From Roseivivax sediminis (GTDB lineage Bacteria > Pseudomonadota > Alphaproteobacteria > Rhodobacterales > Rhodobacteraceae): a stretch of 64,000 bases of DNA. The translations under genes were made by a program, and so were the position numbers. The notes below the pieces were generated by a model. That model did no database searches, had not been told where the DNA came from, and saw only the letters and a program-made list of their open reading frames with translations. The stretch spans positions 62,001 through 126,000 of the forward strand of contig NZ_FOMS01000003.1 in NCBI RefSeq assembly GCF_900112685.1, written 5' to 3'. Numbering within the stretch: the stretch's first letter is position 1; every line of letters starts with the position of its first letter. This document shows, piece by piece, positions 38,603 to 50,380 of the stretch.

Positions 38603-39625
38603 ATGTCCGCATCCCCGATCATCGACATCCGCAACCTGAGAACGCACTTCCACACCGAGAAGGGGCGGGTCACCGCGGTCGACGATGTGTCCTTTCACGT
38701 CGGGCGCAACGAGGTCCTTGGCGTCGTCGGCGAAAGCGGCTGCGGCAAGAGCGTGACGTCCGAGGCGATCATGCAGCTGCTCAACCCCGAGATCACCGAT
38801 TTCGAGGGCGAGATCCTGTTCGATGGCGAGAACCTTCTTGCCCTCGACGAGGCGCGGCTGGCCCGGATCCGCGGCAACGACATCTCGATGATCTTCCAGG
38901 ACACGACCAGTTCGCTGAACCCGCTCTACACGGTGGGCGACCAGATCATCGAGGCGCTCCAGGCCCATGGCCGGCAAAGCCGGCAGGAGGCCGCCAGGAC
39001 CGCGCTGGAGATGGTCAAGGCCACCGGCATCCCGTCGCCCGAGAAGCGGCTGTCCGAATATCCGCACGAGCTGTCGGGCGGGATGCGCCAGCGCATCATG
39101 ATCGCGATGGCCCTGGTCTGCCGCCCGAGGCTCCTGATCGCGGACGAGCCGACCACGGCGCTCGACGTGACCACGCAGGCCCAGATCCTCGACCTGATCA
39201 TGCAGATGAAGGCCGAGCTGGACATGGCCGTCGTGTTCATCACCCACGACATCGGCGTGGTGGCCGAGATCTGCGACCGCGTCGCGGTCATGTATCTTGG
39301 CCAGGTGATCGAGGACAGCACGGTCGAAAGCCTCTTCGACGCGCCCCTTCATCCCTACACGCGCGGCCTGATGCAGGCGATGCCGACCATCGAGAGCGAC
39401 CCTGCCGAAGACCTCTACACGATCCGGGGCCGCGTGCCCTCGCTGTTCGACGTTCCTACGGGCTGCCGGTTTGCCGAACGCTGCCCATACGCGACCGGGA
39501 AGTGCCGTGCCGAGGCGCCGACGCTCGAGGCGGCAACGGACGGCCACAAGGTTCGCTGCTGGCACTGGAAGGCGATCGCGGCGGGCGAGATGACGGAGTC
39601 CGAAGCGGAGCTACAGGCCGGGTGA
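38603..39625 (+). CDS. ABC transporter ATP-binding protein, DppD/OppD type
   Basis: ATPase of 340 residues, last gene of the operon. Walker A GESGCGKSVTSE, Q-loop MIFQDTTSSLNP, signature LSGGMRQRIMIAMAL, Walker B LLIADEPTTALD and switch His FITHDIGVV are intact. The C-terminal oligopeptide_HPY region has CRFAERCPYATGKC. AAGGAG lies 9 bases before the ATG. The 3' end runs 15 bases into the convergent LysR gene, so the two genes overlap tail-to-tail. Confidence 0.94.
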   Translation: MSASPIIDIRNLRTHFHTEKGRVTAVDDVSFHVGRNEVLGVVGESGCGKSVTSEAIMQLLNPEITDFEGEILFDGENLLALDEARLARIRGNDISMIFQDTTSSLNPLYTVGDQIIEALQAHGRQSRQEAARTALEMVKATGIPSPEKRLSEYPHELSGGMRQRIMIAMALVCRPRLLIADEPTTALDVTTQAQILDLIMQMKAELDMAVVFITHDIGVVAEICDRVAVMYLGQVIEDSTVESLFDAPLHPYTRGLMQAMPTIESDPAEDLYTIRGRVPSLFDVPTGCRFAERCPYATGKCRAEAPTLEAATDGHKVRCWHWKAIAAGEMTESEAELQAG

Positions 39626-40543
39626 GGCTCGGTCCTTCTTGAGGATGCCCATGCCTTTCAGGCGGTCGACCTCTGCCTCGATCTCGGAGAAGAGGGCTTC
39701 GGCCACGCGGCTGGTCGGCACATTGTCGGGCGTGAGGAAGACCACTTCCCACTCGATCAGCGGGGTGAGCCGCTTGGAGACCACAGAGGTGCCGCGCAGC
39801 AGAAGCTCGGCGAAGGGATCGACGACGGCAACACCCATCCCGCGATCAACCAGCGCGCAGACGCCGCGCATGGTGCCCATCTCGGCCACGGTCCGGCGGT
39901 CGGCGCTTTCGGTCTGGACCAGTTCGTCCACCCGCTTGCGCAGCGGGCTTTCGGGCATAAGGTCGATGAAATCCTGCCCCCGCAGCATTTCGGCAGAAAT
40001 CAGCTCCTCCCGCGCCAGCGGGTGATCCTCGTGCATGATGCAGCGGGCCTCGCAGCGCCCCAGCGGTCGAACCTTGGCGCTGTAATTGCCGCTTTCGAGC
40101 GTAATGCCGAGCGCCACATCGCAGTAGTTCTTGTCGATGGTTCTGAGCAGCTCGCGCATCCCCACGTCCAGGACCTTTATGCCTATGCCGGGATGCTTGA
40201 CGTTGAAGCTGCGAAGCGCATCCAGCAGCAGCGTGTCCACGAATGTCGGCTGCGCGGCTATGATCACGTTTCCAAGCTGGTTGTTCGCGATCGCCGCGGC
40301 GTCCTGCTCGTTTTCCCGCACCTGCGAGATGAGCCGCGCCACCGACTGGTGGTACAGATGGGCCTCGGGAGTCGGTTTGAGCTGGTTTCGCTTCTTGTCG
40401 AAAAGCGCGAATTTGACTCGGATCTCGAGCTTGCTGAGAAGGCGTGAAATCATCGGCTGACTGATGCCGAGTTCCTCGGATGCGGCCTTCATCGTCCCGA
40501 GCTTCATGTACGCATCAAACGCCTCGAGTTCCCTGATTTTCAA
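39611..40543 (-). CDS. LysR family transcriptional regulator
   Basis: Regulator of 310 residues. The winged helix-turn-helix is at the N-terminus (LKIRELEAFDAYMKLGTMKAASEELGISQPMISRLLSKLE), and residues about 95-295 form the effector-binding domain of two Rossmann-like lobes. The TTG at 40543 places the helix-turn-helix at the normal distance from the N-terminus and has GGGAG upstream; a longer frame to 40606 is possible but unusual. Its convergent overlap with the transport/peptidase operon makes that operon its likely target, although LysR genes are usually divergent from their targets. Confidence 0.9.
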   Translation of the reverse strand: MKIRELEAFDAYMKLGTMKAASEELGISQPMISRLLSKLEIRVKFALFDKKRNQLKPTPEAHLYHQSVARLISQVRENEQDAAAIANNQLGNVIIAAQPTFVDTLLLDALRSFNVKHPGIGIKVLDVGMRELLRTIDKNYCDVALGITLESGNYSAKVRPLGRCEARCIMHEDHPLAREELISAEMLRGQDFIDLMPESPLRKRVDELVQTESADRRTVAEMGTMRGVCALVDRGMGVAVVDPFAELLLRGTSVVSKRLTPLIEWEVVFLTPDNVPTSRVAEALFSEIEAEVDRLKGMGILKKDRASPGL

Positions 40544-40926
40544 TGGACACGACTCCCTTCGAGGGTCCGGCACATTAACTGCTTCTATAGCATGTATCGC
40601 CTGCAAGCTCCGGAATGCACCTCGAAATTCGATCGAACAACGCGGAATACGCGACGCTGCCGGTCACACGGAAACGCTCGGCGTAGGCGAAGAGAATACG
40701 GCGGGCCGGCCTCTCGTGGCGCAGACATCGTTCGTCGCCAGAAGATCGGCTGTCGGGGAGCCTGGGTGACGCCGCCGGAGAATCTCGGTAGATCGACGCG
40801 CCCAGCGAACGGGGCACAGGCCCGCCCGATGGGATGGCAGGATTCGGTCGACCGCGCGGCGCCGCCCCGCGCTTCGATCGTGATGGAGAAAGTGAGCCGC
40901 CCGGATTTCGGATGCCGCACCGGCGG
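40544..40926. other. 383-base intergenic region, no gene recognised
   Basis: Lies between the LysR gene start and the end of the nqr operon (both minus strand). Open frames here have no recognisable domain. It should contain the lysR promoter and the 3' end of the long nqr transcript; no strong hairpin was found. Confidence 0.55.
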
Positions 40927-41319
40927 TCAGCCGATCCTGAGGAGCAGCGCAAGGACGTCCGAGCGGTCCAGAAGCCCCGCGTAGCGTCCGTCGTCAAGCA
41001 CCGGAAAGATCCGGTGAGGGTGGCTCAGGAACATCTCCGCCGCGCGGATGATCTCGTCCGCGGCATCGACCGCCACGACATCCGTCGCCATCCGGTCGGC
41101 AACGCGTCCCGTCCATTCCCGGTGGTAGCTGGCGTGCAGGGCCGGCGCGAAGCAGTCCTTCTGGCTGAGCAGGCCGATCAGCCGGCCATCGTCAGACAGC
41201 ACCGGCGCCACCGCCGCGCGCGCCTCGGTCAGGAGCGCGGCGGCGCGGCGGATTGGCATGTCGGGGACGAGGCCCGGCGCATCGGTGCGCATGATGCCGC
41301 GCACACGGTAGGCGCTCAT
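40927..41319 (-). CDS. CBS domain pair protein at the end of the nqr operon
   Basis: Small soluble protein of 130 residues made of two CBS motifs (about residues 5-58 and 72-128): RVRGIMRTDAPGLVPDMPIRRAA and RVADRMATDVVAVDAADEI begin each, and LIGLLSQKDCF and YAGLLDRSDVL end them. CBS pairs bind adenine nucleotides or NADH and sense energy state. The start overlaps the nqrM stop (ATGA), tying it to the Nqr genes. A role as an energy or redox sensor of the complex is an inference from this coupling. Confidence 0.9.
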   Translation of the reverse strand: MSAYRVRGIMRTDAPGLVPDMPIRRAAALLTEARAAVAPVLSDDGRLIGLLSQKDCFAPALHASYHREWTGRVADRMATDVVAVDAADEIIRAAEMFLSHPHRIFPVLDDGRYAGLLDRSDVLALLLRIG

Positions 41320-41492
41320 CGGTCGCTCTCCGGGCGGGTGCGATGCTGCAGCGGGCAATCGGCGCAGCGGGCGATCGCGAGCCCCTCGGCGGCGGCGCAG
41401 CTCGTCCGGACGGGGCCGCGCCCGAGCATCAGGCCGAGCCCGATGCCCGCCGCCGCGAGCGTCACGAGCAGGACGGCAATGAGGATTTCCAT
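41316..41492 (-). CDS. nqrM: NqrM-type iron delivery/assembly factor
   Basis: Very short membrane protein of 58 residues. One transmembrane helix (about 2-23, EILIAVLLVTLAAAGIGLG) is followed by a cytoplasmic Cys cluster: Cys32 (TSC), Cys43 and Cys46 (RCADCP). NqrM proteins have one helix and a Cys cluster and are needed to place iron in the NqrD/NqrE membrane site. Here one Cys of the usual set (CNCPxPC) is absent. Lies 16 bases past apbE and overlaps the CBS gene. Confidence 0.83.
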   Translation of the reverse strand: MEILIAVLLVTLAAAGIGLGLMLGRGPVRTSCAAAEGLAIARCADCPLQHRTRPESDR

Positions 41493-41508
41493 GGCTCTGC
41501 TCCTTCGG

Positions 41509-42489
41509 TCAGAGGATCAGCGCGGAGATGGCACCGCTGCGCATTTCGCGTAGTCGTCCATCGTCCTCGAACAGGAACAGCGCGTCGATATCGTGGGTGC
41601 GGGCGATGTCCGGCCCGGCCGTGTCGCCCGCGGCGAAGAGCGCGGTGGCCCAGCCGTCTGCCGTCATGGCGTCTGTGGCGACCACCGTCACGGAGCGCAA
41701 GGCGCCGGTCGCGGGGGCGCGGGTTCCGGGGTCTATGATGTGGCCGTAGCGTCGCTGCCCGAGCACGTAGCTCTGCGCGATTGTGCCGGAGGTGGCAACG
41801 GCCGTCCCCGTGGGCAGGCGCAGCGCCGCGGGCGCCGGCAGGCCGGGGATCGGCGCCTCGACCGCGACGCGCCAGTCGCGCGCTTCGGGGTGCTGGCCGA
41901 CCGCCACGAACTCCCCGCCGAGATCGAACAGCAGGTCGGTCATGCCGGCCTCGCGCAGTAGCTCTGCCGCCCGGTCGAGCGCCCAGCCTTTCGCGATGCC
42001 GCAGGGATCGAGCGTGAGATCGCCGCGCGACTTGGTCACGCCGTGCGGGCCCACCGACAGCGCACGCCAGTCCGGCGCGCCGCCCCGCGCGATCGGGCCG
42101 AACCCCCAGCGCGCGACGAGTGGTCCGATAGTGGGTTCGAAGGCGCCCCCGCTGCGCCGCGCGATGTCGAGGGCGGCGGCGGTCACCTCGGTCAGCGCCG
42201 GATCGGCGGTGGCGGCCCCCGCCGGCGCGGCGTTGAAGCGGCTTACGGCGCTGTCCGTCCGCCAGGGCGAGAGCTGCGCGTCGATTCCGGCGAACAGCGC
42301 ATCCAGCGCCGGGGCGAATTGCGCGATGCCCACGCCCGGCGGCGCGGTGATCCGCCAATCGGTGCCGAAGGCCCGCCCCGAGAGCGTCCGGGCCGCGCCG
42401 CCACCGATCGCCGCGGCGGGCAGAAGCAGCGTGCCGCCGATCAGGCCGAGCGCGGCGCGTCGGGACCAGTCCTTGCCGGGTGTCGTCAT
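41509..42489 (-). CDS. apbE: FAD:protein FMN transferase
   Basis: Enzyme of 326 residues that attaches FMN from FAD to Thr in the D-x-(S/T)-G-A-T motif of NqrC, NqrB or RnfG-type proteins, acting in the periplasm. A twin-arginine-like signal (DWSRRAALGLIGG) leads the protein. ApbE motifs: FGTDWRIT near the N-terminus, DSAVSRFN, LDPCGIAKGWALDRA (FAD and Mg site), DLGGEF, and RYGHIIDPGTRAP and TADGWATALF (metal ligands). It sits directly after nqrF, whose operon supplies its target NqrC. Confidence 0.94.
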   Translation of the reverse strand: MTTPGKDWSRRAALGLIGGTLLLPAAAIGGGAARTLSGRAFGTDWRITAPPGVGIAQFAPALDALFAGIDAQLSPWRTDSAVSRFNAAPAGAATADPALTEVTAAALDIARRSGGAFEPTIGPLVARWGFGPIARGGAPDWRALSVGPHGVTKSRGDLTLDPCGIAKGWALDRAAELLREAGMTDLLFDLGGEFVAVGQHPEARDWRVAVEAPIPGLPAPAALRLPTGTAVATSGTIAQSYVLGQRRYGHIIDPGTRAPATGALRSVTVVATDAMTADGWATALFAAGDTAGPDIARTHDIDALFLFEDDGRLREMRSGAISALIL

Positions 42490-42499
42490 CTCAGGCTCC

Positions 42500-43723
42500 T
42501 CATGCTCCGAAATCGTCGTAGAAAATCGCCTCGGGCTCGACGCCGAGCCGGTCGAGCGTGGCGAGCACCGCCGAGATCATCGCGGGCGGCCCGCACAGGT
42601 AGTATTCGCATTCCTCGGGCGCGGGATGCGCGCGCATCTCGGCAAAGAGGATCTCGTGCACGAAACCGGTCGCACCGCCCCAGCGGTCCCCCGGCGCGGG
42701 ATCGGACAGGGCGGGCGTCCAGTCGAAACTGTCGTGCCGCCCGGCGAGGGCGGTGAACTCGTCCGAATAGAACAGGTCGGCGGCGGAGCGGGCACCGAAG
42801 AAATAGCGGATCCGCCGCGAGGTGCCTTGCGCCAGCTCCTGGTGGATCATCGCGCGCAGCGGCGCCATGCCGACGCCGCCGCCCACGAAGACCATCTCGC
42901 GTCCGGTGGGCTGCGCATGGAACTCGCCGAACGGCCCCGACAGCGCAATCCGGTCGCCGGCGCGGAGCGAGAACAGCCAGGATGACACGAGGCCCGGCGG
43001 CAACTCGTGCTCGCGCCCCGCCGGCGGCACGGCGAGCCGGATGTTGAACACCGCGTGCCCGGAATCCTCGGGCCGCGAGGCGAGCGAATAGGCGCGCGTG
43101 ACCTCGGCCACGGAGGCGAGTCGCATCCGGCGCCATCCCGCGATCTCCCAGGCCTCCGAGAAGGCCGGGTCGAAGTCGAGCGTGGCGAAATCGAGCGCGT
43201 AGGGCGGCGCCGTGATCTGCATGAAATCGCCGGCCCGGAATTCCGTCGGCTGCTCGGGCGGCAGCTCGACGACGATCTCGCGGATAAGCGGCGCCAGCAT
43301 CCGGGTGGAGGAGACGGTGCCGAGAACTCCGCCGCCGGCGCTGAGGATGTCGTCCGGCACCTCCACGGCGCAATCGCCGCGCAGCCGCGTCTGGCAGGCA
43401 AGCCTGACATGGGCGCGGCGCTCGCGCGGGGACAGAACTCCGCGTTCGGTCGCCTGCGGCTCGCCCGCACCCTCCCCGGTGACGGTCACGCGGCAGAGCC
43501 CGCAGGTGCCCGATCCGCCGCAGGCCGCCGGGATCGCGACCCCGGCGCCGTGCAGCACCGACAGAAGACCGTCGCCGCGCCGCGCGACGAGGTGCAGCCC
43601 GTCGTTGACGGTGACGTCGAGCCCGGTATCGGGCACCAGGCGCCGCCGCAGCGCAAGCAGCCCGACGCTCATCCCGACGACGAGCGCGACGATGATCGCG
43701 ATTCCCAGCACCACCTCGGTCAT
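42500..43723 (-). CDS. nqrF: Na+-translocating NADH:quinone reductase subunit F
   Basis: NADH-oxidising subunit, 407 residues. One N-terminal transmembrane helix (about 3-25), then a 2Fe-2S ferredoxin domain with Cys68, Cys74, Cys77 and Cys110 (ACGGSGTCGLC and RLACQ), an FAD domain with RAYSLAS, and an NADH domain with GGGVGMAPLRAM and YYLCGPPAM. The ending FYDDFGA is typical of NqrF. Start overlaps the nqrE stop (ATGA). All cofactor-binding residues are present, so electron entry from NADH should work normally. Confidence 0.96.
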   Translation of the reverse strand: MTEVVLGIAIIVALVVGMSVGLLALRRRLVPDTGLDVTVNDGLHLVARRGDGLLSVLHGAGVAIPAACGGSGTCGLCRVTVTGEGAGEPQATERGVLSPRERRAHVRLACQTRLRGDCAVEVPDDILSAGGGVLGTVSSTRMLAPLIREIVVELPPEQPTEFRAGDFMQITAPPYALDFATLDFDPAFSEAWEIAGWRRMRLASVAEVTRAYSLASRPEDSGHAVFNIRLAVPPAGREHELPPGLVSSWLFSLRAGDRIALSGPFGEFHAQPTGREMVFVGGGVGMAPLRAMIHQELAQGTSRRIRYFFGARSAADLFYSDEFTALAGRHDSFDWTPALSDPAPGDRWGGATGFVHEILFAEMRAHPAPEECEYYLCGPPAMISAVLATLDRLGVEPEAIFYDDFGA

Positions 43724-44334
43724 TGCGCCGCCGCCATCTGCGAGAAGGCCGCAAAGCCCAGCGACATCAGCCCGGTCAGCACAAAGGCGATGCCGAGCCC
43801 CCGCAGCCCGGGCGGCAGGTCGGCATAGGCCAGCCGGGTGCGGATCGCCCCCAGCATCGCCACCGCGACCGCGAAGCCGAGACCGCTGCCGAGCCCGAAC
43901 ACCGCCGATTGCGCGAGCGTGTAGCTGCGCTCCACCATGAAGAGCGACCCGGCGAGGATCGCGCATTGCACCGTCAGGAGCGGCAGGAACACCCCGAAGG
44001 CCGCGTGGATCGACGGCACGAAGCGGTCGAGCAGCATTTCGAGCAATTGAACCGAGGCCGCGATCACCCCGATGAAGGCGATCAGCGACAGATAGGACAG
44101 GTCGATCTCCGGCAGGCCCGCCCAGGCCCAGGCGCCGGGCGCCAGGAGGTAGCTGTAGACGAGGTGGTTGAGCGGCACGGTCACCCCCAGCACGCCGGTC
44201 ATCGCCACGCCGAGGCCAAGCGCCGCCTCGGGCCGGCGCGACAGCGCAAGGAACGTGCACAGCCCCAGGAAGAGTGTCAGCGGCATGTTGTCGACGAAGG
44301 CCGCGGTCAGGAAGAGTTCCCACAGTCCGGTCAT
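43720..44334 (-). CDS. nqrE: Na+-translocating NADH:quinone reductase subunit E
   Basis: Six-helix membrane protein of 204 residues, paralogous to NqrD. Cys26 (LFLGLCTF) and Cys124 (LTVQCAIL) correspond to the Cys pair that, with the two of NqrD, holds the iron centre inside the membrane. Start overlaps the nqrD stop (ATGA). The fully conserved Cys pair argues that this part of the electron path is intact. Confidence 0.95.
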   Translation of the reverse strand: MTGLWELFLTAAFVDNMPLTLFLGLCTFLALSRRPEAALGLGVAMTGVLGVTVPLNHLVYSYLLAPGAWAWAGLPEIDLSYLSLIAFIGVIAASVQLLEMLLDRFVPSIHAAFGVFLPLLTVQCAILAGSLFMVERSYTLAQSAVFGLGSGLGFAVAVAMLGAIRTRLAYADLPPGLRGLGIAFVLTGLMSLGFAAFSQMAAAQ

Positions 44335-44996
44335 TCTGCCGGCTCCGTGCTCGGGGGCGGCGTGTGCTCGCGCGCCTCGGATTGTTCGGGCAGGATCGTG
44401 CGCACTGCCCAGACCAGAAGGCCCAGCAGGAAGAAGGCCGAGGGCGCCAGCAGCATCAGGCTCAGCGGTGTGAACCAGCCGCCGGCATCGGCCAGCGGCA
44501 GGATGGTCCGGCCGAACAGTTCGCCCTTGCCGAAGAGCTCGCGCAGGCCGCCGATCGTGACCAGCACCAGCGAATAGCCAAGCCCGTTTCCGAAGGCGTC
44601 GATCATCGCGGGGAACGGGGGATTGTGGCGGGCGAAGGCCTCCGTCCGCCCGAGGACGAGGCAGTTGGTGGTGATCAGCCCGACATAGACCGACAGCGCA
44701 CGGCTGATCTCGGCGAAATACGCCTGCAGGACCTGGTCTATGACGATGACCAGCGAGGCGACGATGACGATCTGGACGATCAGGCGGATGGTGCCCGGGA
44801 TATGCCTGCGGATCGCGCTGACAAGACCCGCCGAGAGCGTCAGCACGATTGTCAGCGCCACCGACATCGTCACCGCGGTTGCCAGCGTCGTCGTCACCGC
44901 GAGCGCCGAGCAGATGCCGAGGATCTGCAGCGTCACCGGGTTCTGCCGGACCAGCGGGTCGGTGAGCGTGCTCCAGGTGGCGCGCGCGGCGGTCAT
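44331..44996 (-). CDS. nqrD: Na+-translocating NADH:quinone reductase subunit D
   Basis: Membrane protein of 221 residues with six helices and a charged Pro-rich C-terminal tail (about residues 195-221). Cys29 (ILGICSAL) and Cys112 (TTNCLVLG) match the iron-centre ligands of the Vibrio enzyme at the same positions. NCLVLGRTEAFA and FGNGLGYSLVL are conserved NqrD segments. The gene begins 3 bases after the nqrC stop. Confidence 0.95.
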   Translation of the reverse strand: MTAARATWSTLTDPLVRQNPVTLQILGICSALAVTTTLATAVTMSVALTIVLTLSAGLVSAIRRHIPGTIRLIVQIVIVASLVIVIDQVLQAYFAEISRALSVYVGLITTNCLVLGRTEAFARHNPPFPAMIDAFGNGLGYSLVLVTIGGLRELFGKGELFGRTILPLADAGGWFTPLSLMLLAPSAFFLLGLLVWAVRTILPEQSEAREHTPPPSTEPAE

Positions 44997-44999
44997 GGC

Positions 45000-45794
45000 T
45001 CAGAACTCCCCACGCGCGATGGCGTCCAGCAGGGGGCCGTAGCCCTCCGGCCCGAGCCAGAAGCGGACCATCTGCGTCACTGCGCGCCCCGTGCGGGTCG
45101 CGCCGGTGATGCCGTCGACCTCGTGCATCCCCGAGGCAGGGCCCTGCGCCACGCGAAAGCGCGTCTCTCCGCTGTCGTCGCGCAGCTCGGTTCCCGGAAA
45201 GGCCGCCTGCCAGGCACGCTCCTCGATCCGGCCGCCGAGGCCGGGGGTTTCGGAATGGCCGGTGATGGCGACGCCGGCGATCGTGTTCATGTCCTCGCGC
45301 AAGGCGAGGATCGCGTCGATCCGGCCGCCATAGCCCTGGCCGCTGAGCGGCAGCAGCACGAGCGACACGCTGTCCCCGTCCCGCAGCAGGTAGATCTGGG
45401 CATAATCGGGACGCCGGCCGAGGCCCGCGATGTCCTGCCCGGCGCCGAGCGTCGTCCAGTTGCCGGGATCGGCGAGCGTGGCCTCGAGGTTCGCGGGCGT
45501 CACGTCCTGCGCCGCGCGGCCGTTCTCGAGGTTCACGACCACGGTCGAGAGTGTGCCGCCGGACTCCTGCAGGAGGTCGGCCATGCCGGGAATGTCGTCC
45601 ACCAGAGCGGCGATCCGGGCCTGCTCCTCGGCGGCGCGGTTCGCGGTCTGGATCGGCCGCAGCACCACGGTCGCGCCGCTGACCAGCGCCGCGCACAGCG
45701 CCGAGACCAGGAAGGCCACCATGACCGTCTTGGTGCGGCTTTCGTTGGGCAGGGCCAGAACGCGGCGCAGGGGGTTCCAGTCACGTGCGGCCAT
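45000..45794 (-). CDS. nqrC: Na+-translocating NADH:quinone reductase subunit C
   Basis: Periplasmic flavoprotein of 264 residues with one N-terminal transmembrane helix (about 24-46). The flavinylation motif DGITGAT at 227-233 places covalent FMN on Thr233. Conserved stretches GYGGRIDAILAL and GHSETPGLGGRIEE are present. It overlaps the nqrB end by 14 bases. This is the only Nqr protein in the operon with a visible covalent FMN site. Confidence 0.95.
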   Translation of the reverse strand: MAARDWNPLRRVLALPNESRTKTVMVAFLVSALCAALVSGATVVLRPIQTANRAAEEQARIAALVDDIPGMADLLQESGGTLSTVVVNLENGRAAQDVTPANLEATLADPGNWTTLGAGQDIAGLGRRPDYAQIYLLRDGDSVSLVLLPLSGQGYGGRIDAILALREDMNTIAGVAITGHSETPGLGGRIEERAWQAAFPGTELRDDSGETRFRVAQGPASGMHEVDGITGATRTGRAVTQMVRFWLGPEGYGPLLDAIARGEF

Positions 45795-46563
45795 GGCGTC
45801 CCTTTCTGCGTGCGGTCCAGAGCGCGAGCGCCGCTTCGTCCAGAAGCGGCGCGACGAGCGAGGTCAGCAGCGCGGCGCTGACGGCGATCTGCGCGGGGGC
45901 GGCACCGGCCCAGCCCCGCGCGAAGAGAATGACGAGCGCGGCATAGAGCGCGCCATTGACCCAGCGGCCCGGGGTCGTCGCCGCGCTGGCGACCGGGTCG
46001 GCGACCAGAAGGACGAGGACGATGCACGCGGCGAACAGCACCGCCTGCGGCACCGCGCCGAGAAGAAGGGCGGCGGCGCCCAGGCCGGCGGCCCCGGCGA
46101 GGACCGCGGCCGGCATGGTCCCCGTTGCGATGCCGATCAGGGCCGCGGGGATCGCCGCCCAGGCGACGGGGGCGTCGAAGCCGGGCCAGGCGAAGGCTGG
46201 GAACCCGAAGCCGAGAAACGACAATGTCACGGTCGCGGGATGCACGACGTTGCGGCCCCAGCCGCCGAACACCAGTTCTCCCAACACGACGCCGAAGCTG
46301 AGGCCGAGGGCGAGGCGGATCACGCCGAGATCCTCCGGCGCCAGCATCGCGACGGCCAGCGCCACGATCATGCCCGACAGCGACGGCGCCTGCGCGCGCG
46401 CCAGCAGGAACACGACATGCCACACCGCGACGATCACCGCGGCGAGGGCAAATCTGCCGAGCGCCTCCGCCCCGCCATGCCAGGCCCAGAACAGCGCCAG
46501 CGGCAGGTAGGCCGCAAGCAGCATCAGCGCGACGGTCTCGCGCGTCCACATCCCCCGCGTCAT
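45781..46563 (-). CDS. nqrB: NqrB/RnfD-family subunit, short form without the FMN attachment motif
   Basis: Membrane protein of 260 residues; Vibrio-type NqrB has about 415. Two hallmark segments remain: ELVFGGWGRNVVHPATV at about 96-112 (EVFGGTGRN..NPA in NqrB) and VADPVASAATTPGRWVNGAL at 187-206 (the DPVSAxxTxxGKW motif). The N-terminal cytoplasmic arm (about 55 residues) and the central segment with the D-x-S-G-A-T flavinylation site are missing: the expected place reads APVAWAAIPAALIG. Covalent FMN cannot be attached in the known way. The frame is intact and overlapped by nqrA and nqrC, so this is a stable variant and not a broken gene. Confidence 0.88.
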   Translation of the reverse strand: MTRGMWTRETVALMLLAAYLPLALFWAWHGGAEALGRFALAAVIVAVWHVVFLLARAQAPSLSGMIVALAVAMLAPEDLGVIRLALGLSFGVVLGELVFGGWGRNVVHPATVTLSFLGFGFPAFAWPGFDAPVAWAAIPAALIGIATGTMPAAVLAGAAGLGAAALLLGAVPQAVLFAACIVLVLLVADPVASAATTPGRWVNGALYAALVILFARGWAGAAPAQIAVSAALLTSLVAPLLDEAALALWTARRKGRHGRT

Positions 46564-47828
46564 GCCGCGAACTCCGTCCTGATGCGATCCAGCATGGCGC
46601 CGAGCTGCGCGGACAGGCGACCGCCTTCGCCCAGCACGTAATCGGCGAGGGCCACGTCCTCCTCCAGCAGCGACAGGAGACCGAGGCGCATCGCGCTCTC
46701 GTCGTCGCCGGCGCCGAGAGCGCGCACGAACGGCGCGGCCGGCAGCGCGGCGCCGAAAGCCTGGTTCAGCGCGGCCGTCGGGATCGCCGGCGTCCCCAAC
46801 CCGGGACGGCGCAGCGCGGCGGTCAGCCAGTGCGTCGGCCGGACGTCGCGGGATGTCGGCAGAACGGTGATCTGTCGGTGCCGCGGCGCGAGCCACCGTG
46901 CCGGCCGCCCGTCGAGTGCGGAGCCCGAGATCAGCTCGTGCGGGCCGGGCACGACGAGGCGCTGGGTCAGCTCGCGCAGGTCGGCGCCGGGATGGGTGCG
47001 CACCGTGCGCGCCGTGCGGAGCGCCGCGCCGCCGATCCGGACGAGCCGGGTCATCGGCAAGACGCCGGTGGCCAGCAGCGCGCCGAGTGCGGCGACATCC
47101 TCGGCATGCAGGTCCCAGACCGGCGCGTCGAGGCCCGCCGGGCAAAGCCGATGCACGCAAATCCCGGCGGCGCCCTGCGGATGACGCGGCCCGCGTGGGA
47201 CGACGCGCGCCCGCTGGTCCGACAACAGGTGCCAGCCTTCGGCGGCGTCTGAGGGCGCGCAAACGATCACCGGCCCCTGACTGAGATGTGCCAGGGCCTC
47301 CAGCCCGTGCGCGAAGGCGTCTTCCTGTCCCTCGATCGCAGCGCGCGGGTCGGGTGCGCCGGGCCGGGTGTCGGTGGCCATCACCACGACGGCGAATGGC
47401 ACCTCCTCTGGCGCGGGCATGCCGCCGAAGGGCCGGCGACGCAGGCGCGGCCAGAAGCCCGCCGCCTGCATGAGGCGGCGCAAGCCGGCATCATTGTTCG
47501 TCGCGGACGTATCGTGGCGCTCCGCCGCGTCGCCGGGGTCGCTGTAGAGGACGATCTCGGACAACTTGCGGCCCGGCAGCAGCGAGATGCGCGCCACACG
47601 ACCGGCCACCGGCGCGGCGAAACGGACCTCGGGGTGGTGGCGCAGACACGCCACGGCGGCGCCGCGCGCGACGCTGTCGCCTTCCTGCAAGAGCGGCGTG
47701 ACATGAAGCGATTGGCCCACGGGCGGGCAGATGGCTGCCTCGTCGGTCCGGACTTCGCTCACGCCCGCCTCTTCCGGTGGCGATGCGAAAACCGGATTCA
47801 GGCCCGCACCGCTCCAGGGAAATCTCAT
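46560..47828 (-). CDS. nqrA: Na+-translocating NADH:quinone reductase subunit A
   Basis: Cytoplasmic, cofactor-free subunit of 422 residues (usual length about 446). The N-terminal lipoyl-like region (VARGAAVACLRHHPEVRFAAPVAGRV) and the central part (GGMPAPEEVPFAVVVMATDTRPGAPDP) align with Vibrio NqrA. The C-terminus LLEEDVALADYVLGEG matches the NqrA end but has lost both Cys residues found there in Vibrio (LCTFVCPG). First gene of the operon, with GGGGG about 8 bases upstream. The divergent pentaheme cytochrome gene starts 166 bases away. Confidence 0.93.
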   Translation of the reverse strand: MRFPWSGAGLNPVFASPPEEAGVSEVRTDEAAICPPVGQSLHVTPLLQEGDSVARGAAVACLRHHPEVRFAAPVAGRVARISLLPGRKLSEIVLYSDPGDAAERHDTSATNNDAGLRRLMQAAGFWPRLRRRPFGGMPAPEEVPFAVVVMATDTRPGAPDPRAAIEGQEDAFAHGLEALAHLSQGPVIVCAPSDAAEGWHLLSDQRARVVPRGPRHPQGAAGICVHRLCPAGLDAPVWDLHAEDVAALGALLATGVLPMTRLVRIGGAALRTARTVRTHPGADLRELTQRLVVPGPHELISGSALDGRPARWLAPRHRQITVLPTSRDVRPTHWLTAALRRPGLGTPAIPTAALNQAFGAALPAAPFVRALGAGDDESAMRLGLLSLLEEDVALADYVLGEGGRLSAQLGAMLDRIRTEFAA

Positions 47829-47908
47829 CCTGCCCCCGATCTTTCCGGCGGCCCGCTGTCTCCGGACCCTGCCGGGCGGAAGGGTATCATCGGCTTTGCA
47901 CCCGCAGA

Positions 47909-47922
47909 ATGATCTGGATCAA
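47909..47922. promoter_or_regulatory. FNR/FnrL-type box between nqrA and the pentaheme cytochrome gene
   Basis: ATGAT-CTGG-ATCAA matches the FNR consensus TTGAT-N4-ATCAA at 9 of 10 positions (read from either strand). Its centre is about 87 bases before the nqrA start codon and 78 bases before the cytochrome start codon, so with leaders of about 40 bases it could stand near -41.5 for either promoter. This points to control by oxygen through an FNR-type regulator. Confidence 0.7.
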
Positions 47923-47993
47923 TTCCGGGGCGGGCCTTCGCCGTTAGGATGCCCCCAAAATCGCCGCAGCTCTGCAGAGGGAGACGACAGATC

Positions 47994-49178
47994 ATGCCGT
48001 TGCCGCACAATGCCTTGCCAAGACCGCTCCTTGTCGGCGCGGGTGTCCTGGCGCTTCTGCTGGGGAGCGGGGCGTTCGGCCAGAGCGTACCCGAGACCGC
48101 CGAGACCGAGGACGACGCTTCGGTCGTGCCGTTCGCGCTGCCCCAGTCCGGGCCGTTCGAACCGGCCGACATCGAGATCGAGAACGACCAGGCGATCGCC
48201 GACTGGTTCCGTTCGGCCCATGCCAACGCGGCCGCGGAGGCGTTCCGGCACTGGGACGAGGAGGGAGAGATCGAATCCAGCTGCGCGACCTGCCATTCGG
48301 GCGAGGGCTTCCGCGATTTCCACGGGCTCGACGGCAGCGAGGCGGGCGTCGTCGACGGCCCGATCGACGTCGGCGGCGTCGTCGATTGCGGTACCTGCCA
48401 CAATGCCGGGCTGGCGCAGATCTCCGAGGTGACGCTGCCCAGCGGCGTCGCCCATCCGGTGCAGGGCGTGGAAGCCTCGTGCCTGACCTGCCACCAGGGC
48501 CGCGCGGCCGGCGGCGACGTCGAGGAGGCCGTCGCGGACCTTGCGCTGGACGAGCCGGACCCGTCGCTGCGCTTCATCAATCCGCACTACGCGACGGCCG
48601 CGGCCACCTGGCTCGGCGGTTACGGTGCCTCGGGCTACCACTACGAGGGCCGCGACTATTCGGGGCGGTTCTTCCATGCCCGCCCGGTGGAGAGTTGCAA
48701 TTCGTGCCACGAGCCGCACACGCTCGAGGTGGAGTTCGAGCCCTGCCTCACCTGCCACCAGGCCGACAGCCCGCAGGACATCCGCATCTCCCGCCAGAGC
48801 TACGACGGCAGCGGCGACACTTCCGTCGGCATCCGCTCCGACATCGAGGCCAATGCCAACCGGCTGCTCGACATGATCCGCGCCTATGCCGACGAGGTCG
48901 CGGGCGTGCCGATGATCCACGACGGCACCCGCTATCCGTATTTCTTCACCGATGCCAACGGCGACGGCGCGGTGGACATGGCGGACGGCGCTCCGGTCGC
49001 CTATGGCGCCTGGACGCCGCGCAGCCTGCGCACGGTCTTCAACTGGAAGCTGGTGACCTCCGATCCCGGCGCCTACGCGCACAATCCGGCCTACGCGCTG
49101 GAGCTGCTGCACGATTCCATCGCCGATCTCGCCGGACCGCTCGGCATCGACATGGACGCGCTGGACCTGCTCCGCTAG
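47994..49178 (+). CDS. Periplasmic pentaheme cytochrome c with an EF-hand-like loop
   Basis: Protein of 394 residues with a signal peptide (about 1-29, PLLVGAGVLALLLGSGAFG). Five CXXCH heme sites start at residues 97 (CATCH), 132 (CGTCH), 163 (CLTCH), 235 (CNSCH) and 251 (CLTCH); additional His (SAHANAA, FHGLDG, INPHYA, YHYEG) could be distal ligands. The Cys/heme part ends near 255. The rest has a calcium-loop-like DANGDGAVDMAD near 322-333 and no further hemes. I do not recognise a named enzyme family; general likeness is to multiheme CxxCH proteins that shuttle electrons. It is divergent from the nqr operon and shares the FNR-type box. The antiporter gene follows after 35 bases. Confidence 0.9.
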   Translation: MPLPHNALPRPLLVGAGVLALLLGSGAFGQSVPETAETEDDASVVPFALPQSGPFEPADIEIENDQAIADWFRSAHANAAAEAFRHWDEEGEIESSCATCHSGEGFRDFHGLDGSEAGVVDGPIDVGGVVDCGTCHNAGLAQISEVTLPSGVAHPVQGVEASCLTCHQGRAAGGDVEEAVADLALDEPDPSLRFINPHYATAAATWLGGYGASGYHYEGRDYSGRFFHARPVESCNSCHEPHTLEVEFEPCLTCHQADSPQDIRISRQSYDGSGDTSVGIRSDIEANANRLLDMIRAYADEVAGVPMIHDGTRYPYFFTDANGDGAVDMADGAPVAYGAWTPRSLRTVFNWKLVTSDPGAYAHNPAYALELLHDSIADLAGPLGIDMDALDLLR

Positions 49179-49213: not shown

Positions 49214-50380
49214 ATGGATCAGGCCGATCTGCTGGTGACGCTCGGCGTGCTGTTCGCCGGTGGCCTGGCCGCGCACCAGATCGGGGTGGTCACGCGGCTG
49301 CCGCGAGTGACGCTGCTTCTGCTCTTCGGGCTGGCTGTCGGGCAATCCGGGTTCGGCCTGCTGCCGGCAGAGGCGAACGGATGGTTCGAACTGATCTCCG
49401 TCGTGGCGTTGACCATGGTCGCATTTCTGCTTGGCGCGGACCTCACGCGCGACAACATGGCCCGGCACGGCCGTGCGATCCTCGCGATCTCGCTCGCCGT
49501 CGTGGCCGGAACCACGCTGATCGTCTGGGCCGGACTGTCGGCGCTCGGGGTCGATCCCCGGCTGGCGCTGCTTCTCGGGGCGACCGCGACCGCGACCGAC
49601 CCCGCGGCGATCGCCGACGTGATCCGTCAATCGGGGCGCCGCACCGGCTTTACCGAGACGATCGGCGGAATCGTGGCGATCGACGACGTCTGGGGACTGA
49701 TCGTCTTCAGCGTCTGCCTCGCGCTTGCGCATCCCTCGGGCGACTGGGCGACGCCTTTCATGGTCGCCGGCCGCGACATCCTCGGCGCGGTGGCGCTCGG
49801 CCTCGTGATCGGCGCGCCGTCGGCCCATCTCAGCGGGCGGCTCAAGCCGGGTGAGCCACTGCAACTGGAGGCGTTCGGCATCGTGTTCCTGACCGCGGGG
49901 CTCGCGCTCTGGCTCGAGGTGTCTTACCTTGTGGCGGGCATGACGGCGGGTGCGATCATCGCCAACTTCGCCCGCCATCACGACGTCGCCTTCAACGAGA
50001 TCGAGCGGATCGAGCTGCCGTTCATGCTGCTGTTCTTCTTGCTCGCCGGCGCGTCGCTGGAGGTCGATGCGCTCTGGGCGCTGGGCTGGATCACGGCGGC
50101 CTATATCGGCCTGCGCATTGCCGCGCGTGTGCTGAGCGGGGAAATCGGCGCCCGGCTCGGCGGCCTGCATGGGGCCGAGCGGCATTGTTACGGGCCGGCG
50201 CTGTTGCCGCAGGCAGGGGTGGCCGTCGGCATGGCGCTTGTCGCGGCCGAGACGTTTCCGGAGTGGGCCGTGCCGATCATGACCCTGACGATCGCATCGA
50301 CCGTGGTGTTCGAGATCCTCGGTCCGCCGGCCACGCTGGCGGTGATCCGGCGCCTGAGCCGGCGTGGGGACGGCGGCTGA
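49214..50380 (+). CDS. Cation:proton antiporter, CPA family
   Basis: Membrane protein of 388 residues with about twelve helices, Na+/H+ exchanger fold. ATATDPAAIADVI (about residues 115-127) and AIDDVWGLI (about 154-162) carry the paired Asp residues of the cation-binding centre. The GLAVGQSGFGLLP segment near the N-terminus is typical of CPA members. No TrkA-N domain follows, unlike KefB/C. It lies 35 bases after the pentaheme cytochrome gene and could be co-transcribed. An antiporter beside a sodium-pumping Nqr operon would connect sodium and proton gradients, an inference from position. Confidence 0.9.
   Translation: MDQADLLVTLGVLFAGGLAAHQIGVVTRLPRVTLLLLFGLAVGQSGFGLLPAEANGWFELISVVALTMVAFLLGADLTRDNMARHGRAILAISLAVVAGTTLIVWAGLSALGVDPRLALLLGATATATDPAAIADVIRQSGRRTGFTETIGGIVAIDDVWGLIVFSVCLALAHPSGDWATPFMVAGRDILGAVALGLVIGAPSAHLSGRLKPGEPLQLEAFGIVFLTAGLALWLEVSYLVAGMTAGAIIANFARHHDVAFNEIERIELPFMLLFFLLAGASLEVDALWALGWITAAYIGLRIAARVLSGEIGARLGGLHGAERHCYGPALLPQAGVAVGMALVAAETFPEWAVPIMTLTIASTVVFEILGPPATLAVIRRLSRRGDGG

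Follow-up and report, generated by a model that had tools for sequence, protein, structure and literature searches.

Where do the electrons of a Na+-NQR relative go when its quinone end appears to be lost? The question is raised by a locus of Roseivivax sediminis (contig NZ_FOMS01000003.1, positions 62,001 to 126,000; this stretch of 64,000 nucleotides is referred to below as the window). Between positions 40927 and 49178 the window carries an nqr operon with a short nqrB on the minus strand and, divergent from it on the plus strand, the gene of a secreted pentaheme c-type cytochrome (Table 1). We suggest that the module is probably an Nqr-derived NADH:cytochrome c oxidoreductase, in which electrons would leave at NqrC rather than passing via NqrB to quinone. 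The preliminary description of this DNA had listed a complete nqrABCDEF-apbE-nqrM-CBS operon and the divergent cytochrome gene. The gene content and order are as first described, except that NqrM is tentative: the 58-aa open reading frame (41316-41492) has no NqrM match in Pfam, and we take it to be NqrM-like from its place, its hydrophobic stretch and its three-Cys pattern. The promoter region common to the two units had been put at 166 bases. Relatives support a cytochrome start at 47994, not 47949, and the gap is therefore 165 bases (120 with the upstream ATG).

The quinone end of this Nqr relative seems to be lost on both of its sides. In the alignment with NqrB of Vibrio cholerae, residues 1-49 and about 222-270 are gone from the window NqrB, and the stretch after the first helix is much shorter. 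The earlier claim that this NqrB is without its FMN holds in the form of a missing [ST]GA[ST] loop. The FMN motif stands at the loop position in none of 129 short NqrBs, with two chance matches elsewhere in the chain (motif counts in short operons refer to loci, not all from distinct organisms). In the available text on published structures, inhibitors and quinone are located at the NqrB N-terminus, and NqrA residues 330-379 are intertwined with NqrB residues 34-53. The alignment of the window NqrA skips from 338 to 391 (Vibrio numbering). Among 20 aligned NqrAs, the segment matching the NqrB N-terminus is mostly missing in all 18 from short-NqrB operons and present in both from long ones. NqrA and NqrB both score far below the NCBIfam equivalog cut-offs, and the proposed gate Phe338/Phe342 is Ile/Leu in short NqrB according to the alignments. 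The predicted model of the short NqrB nevertheless retains the NqrB fold (pLDDT 91.9; 15 PDB matches at E <= 0.001, the best being 8a1x_B). The loss of the quinone-site N-terminus goes beyond the preliminary description, as do the exchanger gene 3' of the cytochrome gene and a second module in the genome.

By contrast, the redox carriers that lead from NADH as far as the NqrC flavin in the periplasm look intact in their residues. NqrF, NqrE and NqrD score above the NCBIfam equivalog cut-offs and NqrC marginally below. Across the short-operon loci, CX5CX2C is found in 127 of 127 NqrFs, the FMN-attachment motif in 129 of 130 NqrCs, and the cysteine patterns in 125 of 128 NqrDs and 119 of 123 NqrEs; all four NqrD/E cysteines of the window align with the Vibrio 2Fe-2S ligands. 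The gene apbE is present in 67 of the 75 named operons (L125-L204) having nqrF and CBS; the other eight are without it, though the NqrC motif is near-universal.

The pairing of short NqrB with the cytochrome is conserved. Our family sample comprised 394 genomes, of which 66 match the cytochrome and 108 match NqrB. Score and frame divide the latter into 51 short-NqrB genomes and 57 whose matches are all weak (E of at least 1.9e-13), mostly in frames of about 400 aa of the canonical type; L123 and L124, the two fetched, possess the FMN loop and are without the cytochrome. Of the 51 short-NqrB genomes, 47 carry the cytochrome, compared with 2 of the 57 that match NqrB solely in this other way and 17 of the 286 without any NqrB match (Fisher p 3e-23 and 3e-38, respectively, uncorrected for kinship). 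The preliminary description had held that the proposed coupling would fail if the cytochrome were missing beside short-NqrB operons in most relatives. We found the opposite, with the cytochrome adjacent in 45 of 51 genomes and the two starts no more than 2.9 kb apart in 45 of the 47 carriers of both; in G159 the short nqr and the cytochrome are on different contigs. The search for co-occurrence that had been suggested was also run on a further sample, in which 292 genomes of the order were searched by NqrB (35 with short NqrB, 19 of them new and all fetched). All 19 further operons have an adjacent cytochrome or its remains: 17 are full-length, one is a remnant (L226) and one is broken along with nqr (L231).

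When named genomes were scanned with the cytochrome and 80 loci kept, 78 of these proved to have nqrA-B-C or more divergently adjoining it, and the remaining two start at contig ends. The named hosts include Jannaschia, Marivita, Pseudooceanicola, Paracoccus, Martelella, Nitratireductor, Shinella, Mesorhizobium and Devosia. One locus (L171) comes from a metagenome-assembled genome labelled Granulosicoccus, whose module lies inside the alphaproteobacterial branch, through either gene transfer or mis-binning. In 18 of the 80 named loci a Na+/H+ exchanger gene follows the cytochrome at a distance of no more than 400 bp (3 on the opposite strand), and no other neighbour family was found to recur at a fixed place beside the module. 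Since the flanks are unconserved apart from the exchanger, wider synteny does not account for the nqr-cytochrome pair. Adjacency also outlasts a change of orientation, the cytochrome being co-directional ahead of nqrA in L109, L111, L115 and L231, and in L109 and L231 nqr and cytochrome are both broken. We regard the unconserved flanks, the change of orientation, the joint decay and the separate branching of the two modules of this genome (below) as signs of function rather than inertia.

At the NqrC step, donor and acceptor both seem exchangeable, with the periplasmic step retained. Nineteen cytochrome-positive genomes are without short NqrB, and in 15 of these a ferric-reductase-like FAD/NAD-binding membrane protein is divergent from the cytochrome. 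This arrangement is seen in L065-L070, L073, L075-L078, L080, L082-L084 and L116, often with a TTGAN6TCAA box between the two genes, and in L116 both are broken. Second cytochrome copies lie beside a ferric-reductase-like partner in G047 and beside neither partner in G349 and G346. On the other side, four short-NqrB genomes are without the pentaheme cytochrome (L105, L106, L107 and L108). In L105 (143-1510), a tetraheme c3-type cytochrome is divergent from the short-NqrB operon and is followed by pieces of an FAD_binding_2 flavoprotein, apparently broken. In L107 (1367-2752), an EB_dh-type protein with one CXXCH takes the divergent place of the pentaheme cytochrome, and in L108 the available stretch stops inside nqrB. 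Another alphaproteobacterial family has a short nqrBCDEF-apbE-CBS operon with a four-CXXCH protein about 2 kb off and no detectable nqrA (L211, 6929-14909).

The five hemes of the preliminary description correspond to five CXXCH motifs. Besides these, exactly five His residues (76, 198, 228, 242 and 363) are shared without exception by 21 diverse relatives. This suggests that each heme is bis-His ligated and hence that the protein is an electron carrier. The cytochrome matches Pfam Cytochrom_CIII and Cytochrome_C7 weakly. Its AlphaFold model is only fair (mean pLDDT 75.1, no heme coordinates), and the fold has no PDB match at E <= 0.001. Among 385 genomes of other families of the class, three weak short matches were found beyond its own genome and one family member. 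A divergent pentaheme relative in L122 (6332-7549) is followed by a larger multi-CXXCH protein, with neither nqr nor a ferric-reductase-like partner.

FNR-type control, and with it low-oxygen expression, fits the divergent promoter region, with a better match in clade B of the cytochrome, the one of its two clades in which such boxes are strongly conserved, than in clade A, to which the window belongs. The pattern [TA]TGAN6TCAA has two occurrences in the whole window. Of the 14 nqr-linked regions of clade B, 11 have the strict form TTGAN6TCAA (expected 0.09), as do 14 of the 22 nqr-free cytochrome loci (expected 0.04); the expectations are from a first-order Markov control, and the relatives are not independent.

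The chain is intact to NqrC and cut beyond it, and donor and acceptor at this step seem exchangeable; the most likely path therefore starts at NADH, follows NqrF, NqrD/E and the NqrC flavin in turn and so reaches the cytochrome. NADH electrons would enter at NqrF (FAD, 2Fe-2S) of the ApbE-flavinylated membrane complex, and the NqrD/E 2Fe-2S cluster would pass them on to the periplasmic FMN of NqrC. This FMN would hand them to the putatively bis-His pentaheme cytochrome, bypassing NqrB and quinone, and the cytochrome would then deliver them to some periplasmic acceptor. The hand-over, its direction from NADH to the cytochrome and any Na+ translocation by the truncated NqrB are steps that we infer. 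More tentatively, such modules may form a distinct class, an ion-motive NADH:cytochrome c oxidoreductase that has dropped quinone, uses interchangeable periplasmic cytochromes and pumps by NqrD/E and NqrC alone. The pentaheme acceptor would also be served by the ferric-reductase-like protein, for which no pump is known, so that an energy-conserving and a non-conserving route would lead to it.

Several observations weigh against the path from NqrC to the cytochrome. The short nqr and the cytochrome are on different contigs in G346, four genomes (G087, G119, G199 and G007) carry the cytochrome with neither partner near, and L106 (G036) has a short nqr with no cytochrome seen in the flank fetched. 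The FNR-type boxes are weak in clade A, with the strict form in 2 of 30 regions and the relaxed [TA]TGAN6TCAA in 10 of 30 (0.23 expected). Adjacency is also no proof of electron transfer, since cytochromes beside rnf can be dispensable: published work reports that fitness was unaffected, in the conditions cited, when Desulfovibrio alaskensis lost the decaheme cytochrome gene of its rnf operon, and that loss of MmcA beside the rnf of Methanosarcina acetivorans left growth on acetate unharmed. NqrA is present in every pentaheme-linked operon compared, and the riboflavin site is partly present in the window NqrB (in Vibrio numbering, it retains N200 and D346, with V in place of T162 and H in place of N203), so that NqrB may still be redox active. 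The retention of NqrA, NqrB and these two riboflavin-site residues would also agree with a complex that is still an NADH:quinone oxidoreductase, in which riboflavin in the short NqrB takes the electrons of NqrC and gives them to quinone at a modified site, with the cytochrome as a co-regulated side branch. We consider this unlikely, because NqrB has lost its FMN and its N-terminus and NqrA has lost the segment surrounding that N-terminus, N200 and N203 are both replaced in several clade B members, and neither the partner swaps nor the linkage seen in 45 of 51 genomes would be explained by a side branch. The genome also encodes a complex I subunit, so quinone reduction need not rest on this module.

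Operation in reverse would have a periplasmic donor reduce the pentaheme cytochrome, and NqrC, NqrD/E and NqrF would then reduce NAD+ using the ion gradient. Rnf/Nqr-type complexes are capable of running backwards, according to the available part of a review, and the antiporter gene after the cytochrome in some of the named loci also speaks for this reading. However, genes of sulfur, hydrogen or other lithotrophy do not recur next to the module, and the alternative partner is ferric-reductase-like, a kind expected to move NAD(P)H electrons outward, which makes the reverse direction quite improbable. A still different role would be that of a terminal reductase, with the pentaheme protein itself acting in the manner of NrfA on nitrite or another small acceptor, with Nqr or the ferric-reductase-like protein as its electron source. 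It does show a weak resemblance to NrfA in sequence and fold, but the invariant extra His residues, one for each CXXCH, suggest that no heme is open, CXXCK is absent and the PDB search gave no fold match at the threshold above; we hold this role to be very unlikely. For the final acceptor of the preferred path, three leads were tried and rejected. Full-length matches to N2O reductase (NosZ type) occur in 10 of 40 short-NqrB genomes (40 of the 47 carrying the cytochrome were used) and in 11 of 40 controls, showing no link, and the three matches above the curated cut-off are all in controls. Cytochrome c peroxidase/MauG, at 37 of 40 against 32 of 40 controls, is too common to discriminate. Nor does a conserved third gene name the acceptor, the Na+/H+ exchanger being the one neighbour with a recurrent fixed position.

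The genome holds a second complete module on contig C3 at about 345.7-355 kb (L003, 650-10082), with an exchanger, a pentaheme cytochrome, nqrA-F, apbE and CBS. The two modules are 66-68% identical. They branch apart, in different parts of the NqrDEF tree, so a recent duplication as the origin of the second is unsupported. In the window, a LysR-like regulator gene, judged by eye from the sequence, lies past the CBS gene at 39611-40606 on the same strand as the nqr operon.

Table 1. Features of the nqr-cytochrome locus and its exchanger gene, in window positions
Feature	Position	Strand	Basis
Two-CBS-domain protein	40927-41319	-	PF00571, E 4e-20
NqrM-like small protein, 58 aa, 3 Cys, tentative	41316-41492	-	Place, one hydrophobic stretch, three Cys
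apbE, FMN transferase	41509-42489	-	PF02424, E 1.8e-64
nqrF, 2Fe-2S, FAD and NAD(P)-binding domains	42503-43723	-	Domain and NCBIfam matches
nqrE, both cluster cysteines present	43720-44334	-	NCBIfam match, Vibrio alignment
nqrD, both cluster cysteines present	44331-44996	-	NCBIfam match, Vibrio alignment
nqrC, FMN-attachment motif TGAT	45000-45794	-	139 bits vs NCBIfam cut-off 144
Short nqrB, 260 aa, without FMN loop or N-terminal quinone-site region	45781-46563	-	56 bits vs NCBIfam cut-off 350
nqrA-like, 422 aa, without most of the segment holding the NqrB N-terminus in Vibrio	46560-47828	-	191 bits vs NCBIfam cut-off 321
Divergent promoter region common to both units, 165 bases	47829-47993	.	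Gene starts
FNR-type box ATGATCTGGATCAA	47909-47922	.	Halfway between the two gene starts
Secreted pentaheme c-type cytochrome, 394 aa, 5 CXXCH	47994-49178	+	Motifs, relatives
Na+/H+ exchanger-family protein, optional part	49214-50380	+	PF00999, E 1.5e-31

A literature text search, with subscription papers and preprints mostly outside its coverage, found no published account of a short NqrB or of a cytochrome beside Nqr. The pairing in many marine bacteria suggests a new electron route; if the proposal is true, it would be a respiratory entry that bypasses both quinone and the bc1 complex, in 51 of the 394 family genomes. The module also bears on how these complexes pump. The available text of the papers sets translocation through NqrB via FMN and riboflavin against an inward-outward switch of NqrD/E (RnfA/E). 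Here the NqrB FMN and quinone site have been removed naturally and the gate altered, with D, E and C staying in place. If the complex pumps, the NqrB-FMN model is not general; if it does not, it reveals the role of the NqrB part.

Among known systems, the Na+-NQR of V. cholerae (NqrA-F) has the same six subunits in the same order, and apbE, the NqrC FMN motif and the NqrD/E cysteines are retained in the module. It differs from the module in that the latter has a shortened NqrB, lacking FMN loop and quinone-site N-terminus, and a neighbouring secreted cytochrome. The Rnf complex of M. acetivorans has a homologous membrane core and a multiheme cytochrome adjoining the operon, MmcA, which has been proposed, in the published text available, to accept electrons from Rnf. 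As described there, that system has ferredoxin input and a seven-heme MmcA, whereas the input of the module would be NADH through NqrF, and the places of RnfB and RnfC are taken by NqrF and NqrA. In D. alaskensis, the accessible account likewise gives a multiheme cytochrome gene (dhcA, decaheme) before the rnf operon and an apbE-like gene at its end; the system is an Rnf, however, and its cytochrome is of the c3 family. NrfA, the pentaheme nitrite reductase, is also secreted with five hemes and shows the faint resemblance discussed above, but the cytochrome has no confident fold match to it and its extra invariant His residues suggest that none of the hemes is open. The two-subunit NQR/RNF-like systems (Meheust 2021; mSystems 2024), for which the available text proposes a one-way path from NAD(P)H to an extracytosolic flavin, share with the module an NqrB-like part without the FMN Thr. 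Those systems, by the same text, have an NqrB fusion with an NAD-binding domain and no D, E or A subunit, whereas the window NqrB matches PF03116 only, with no such fusion, and the module has all six subunits.

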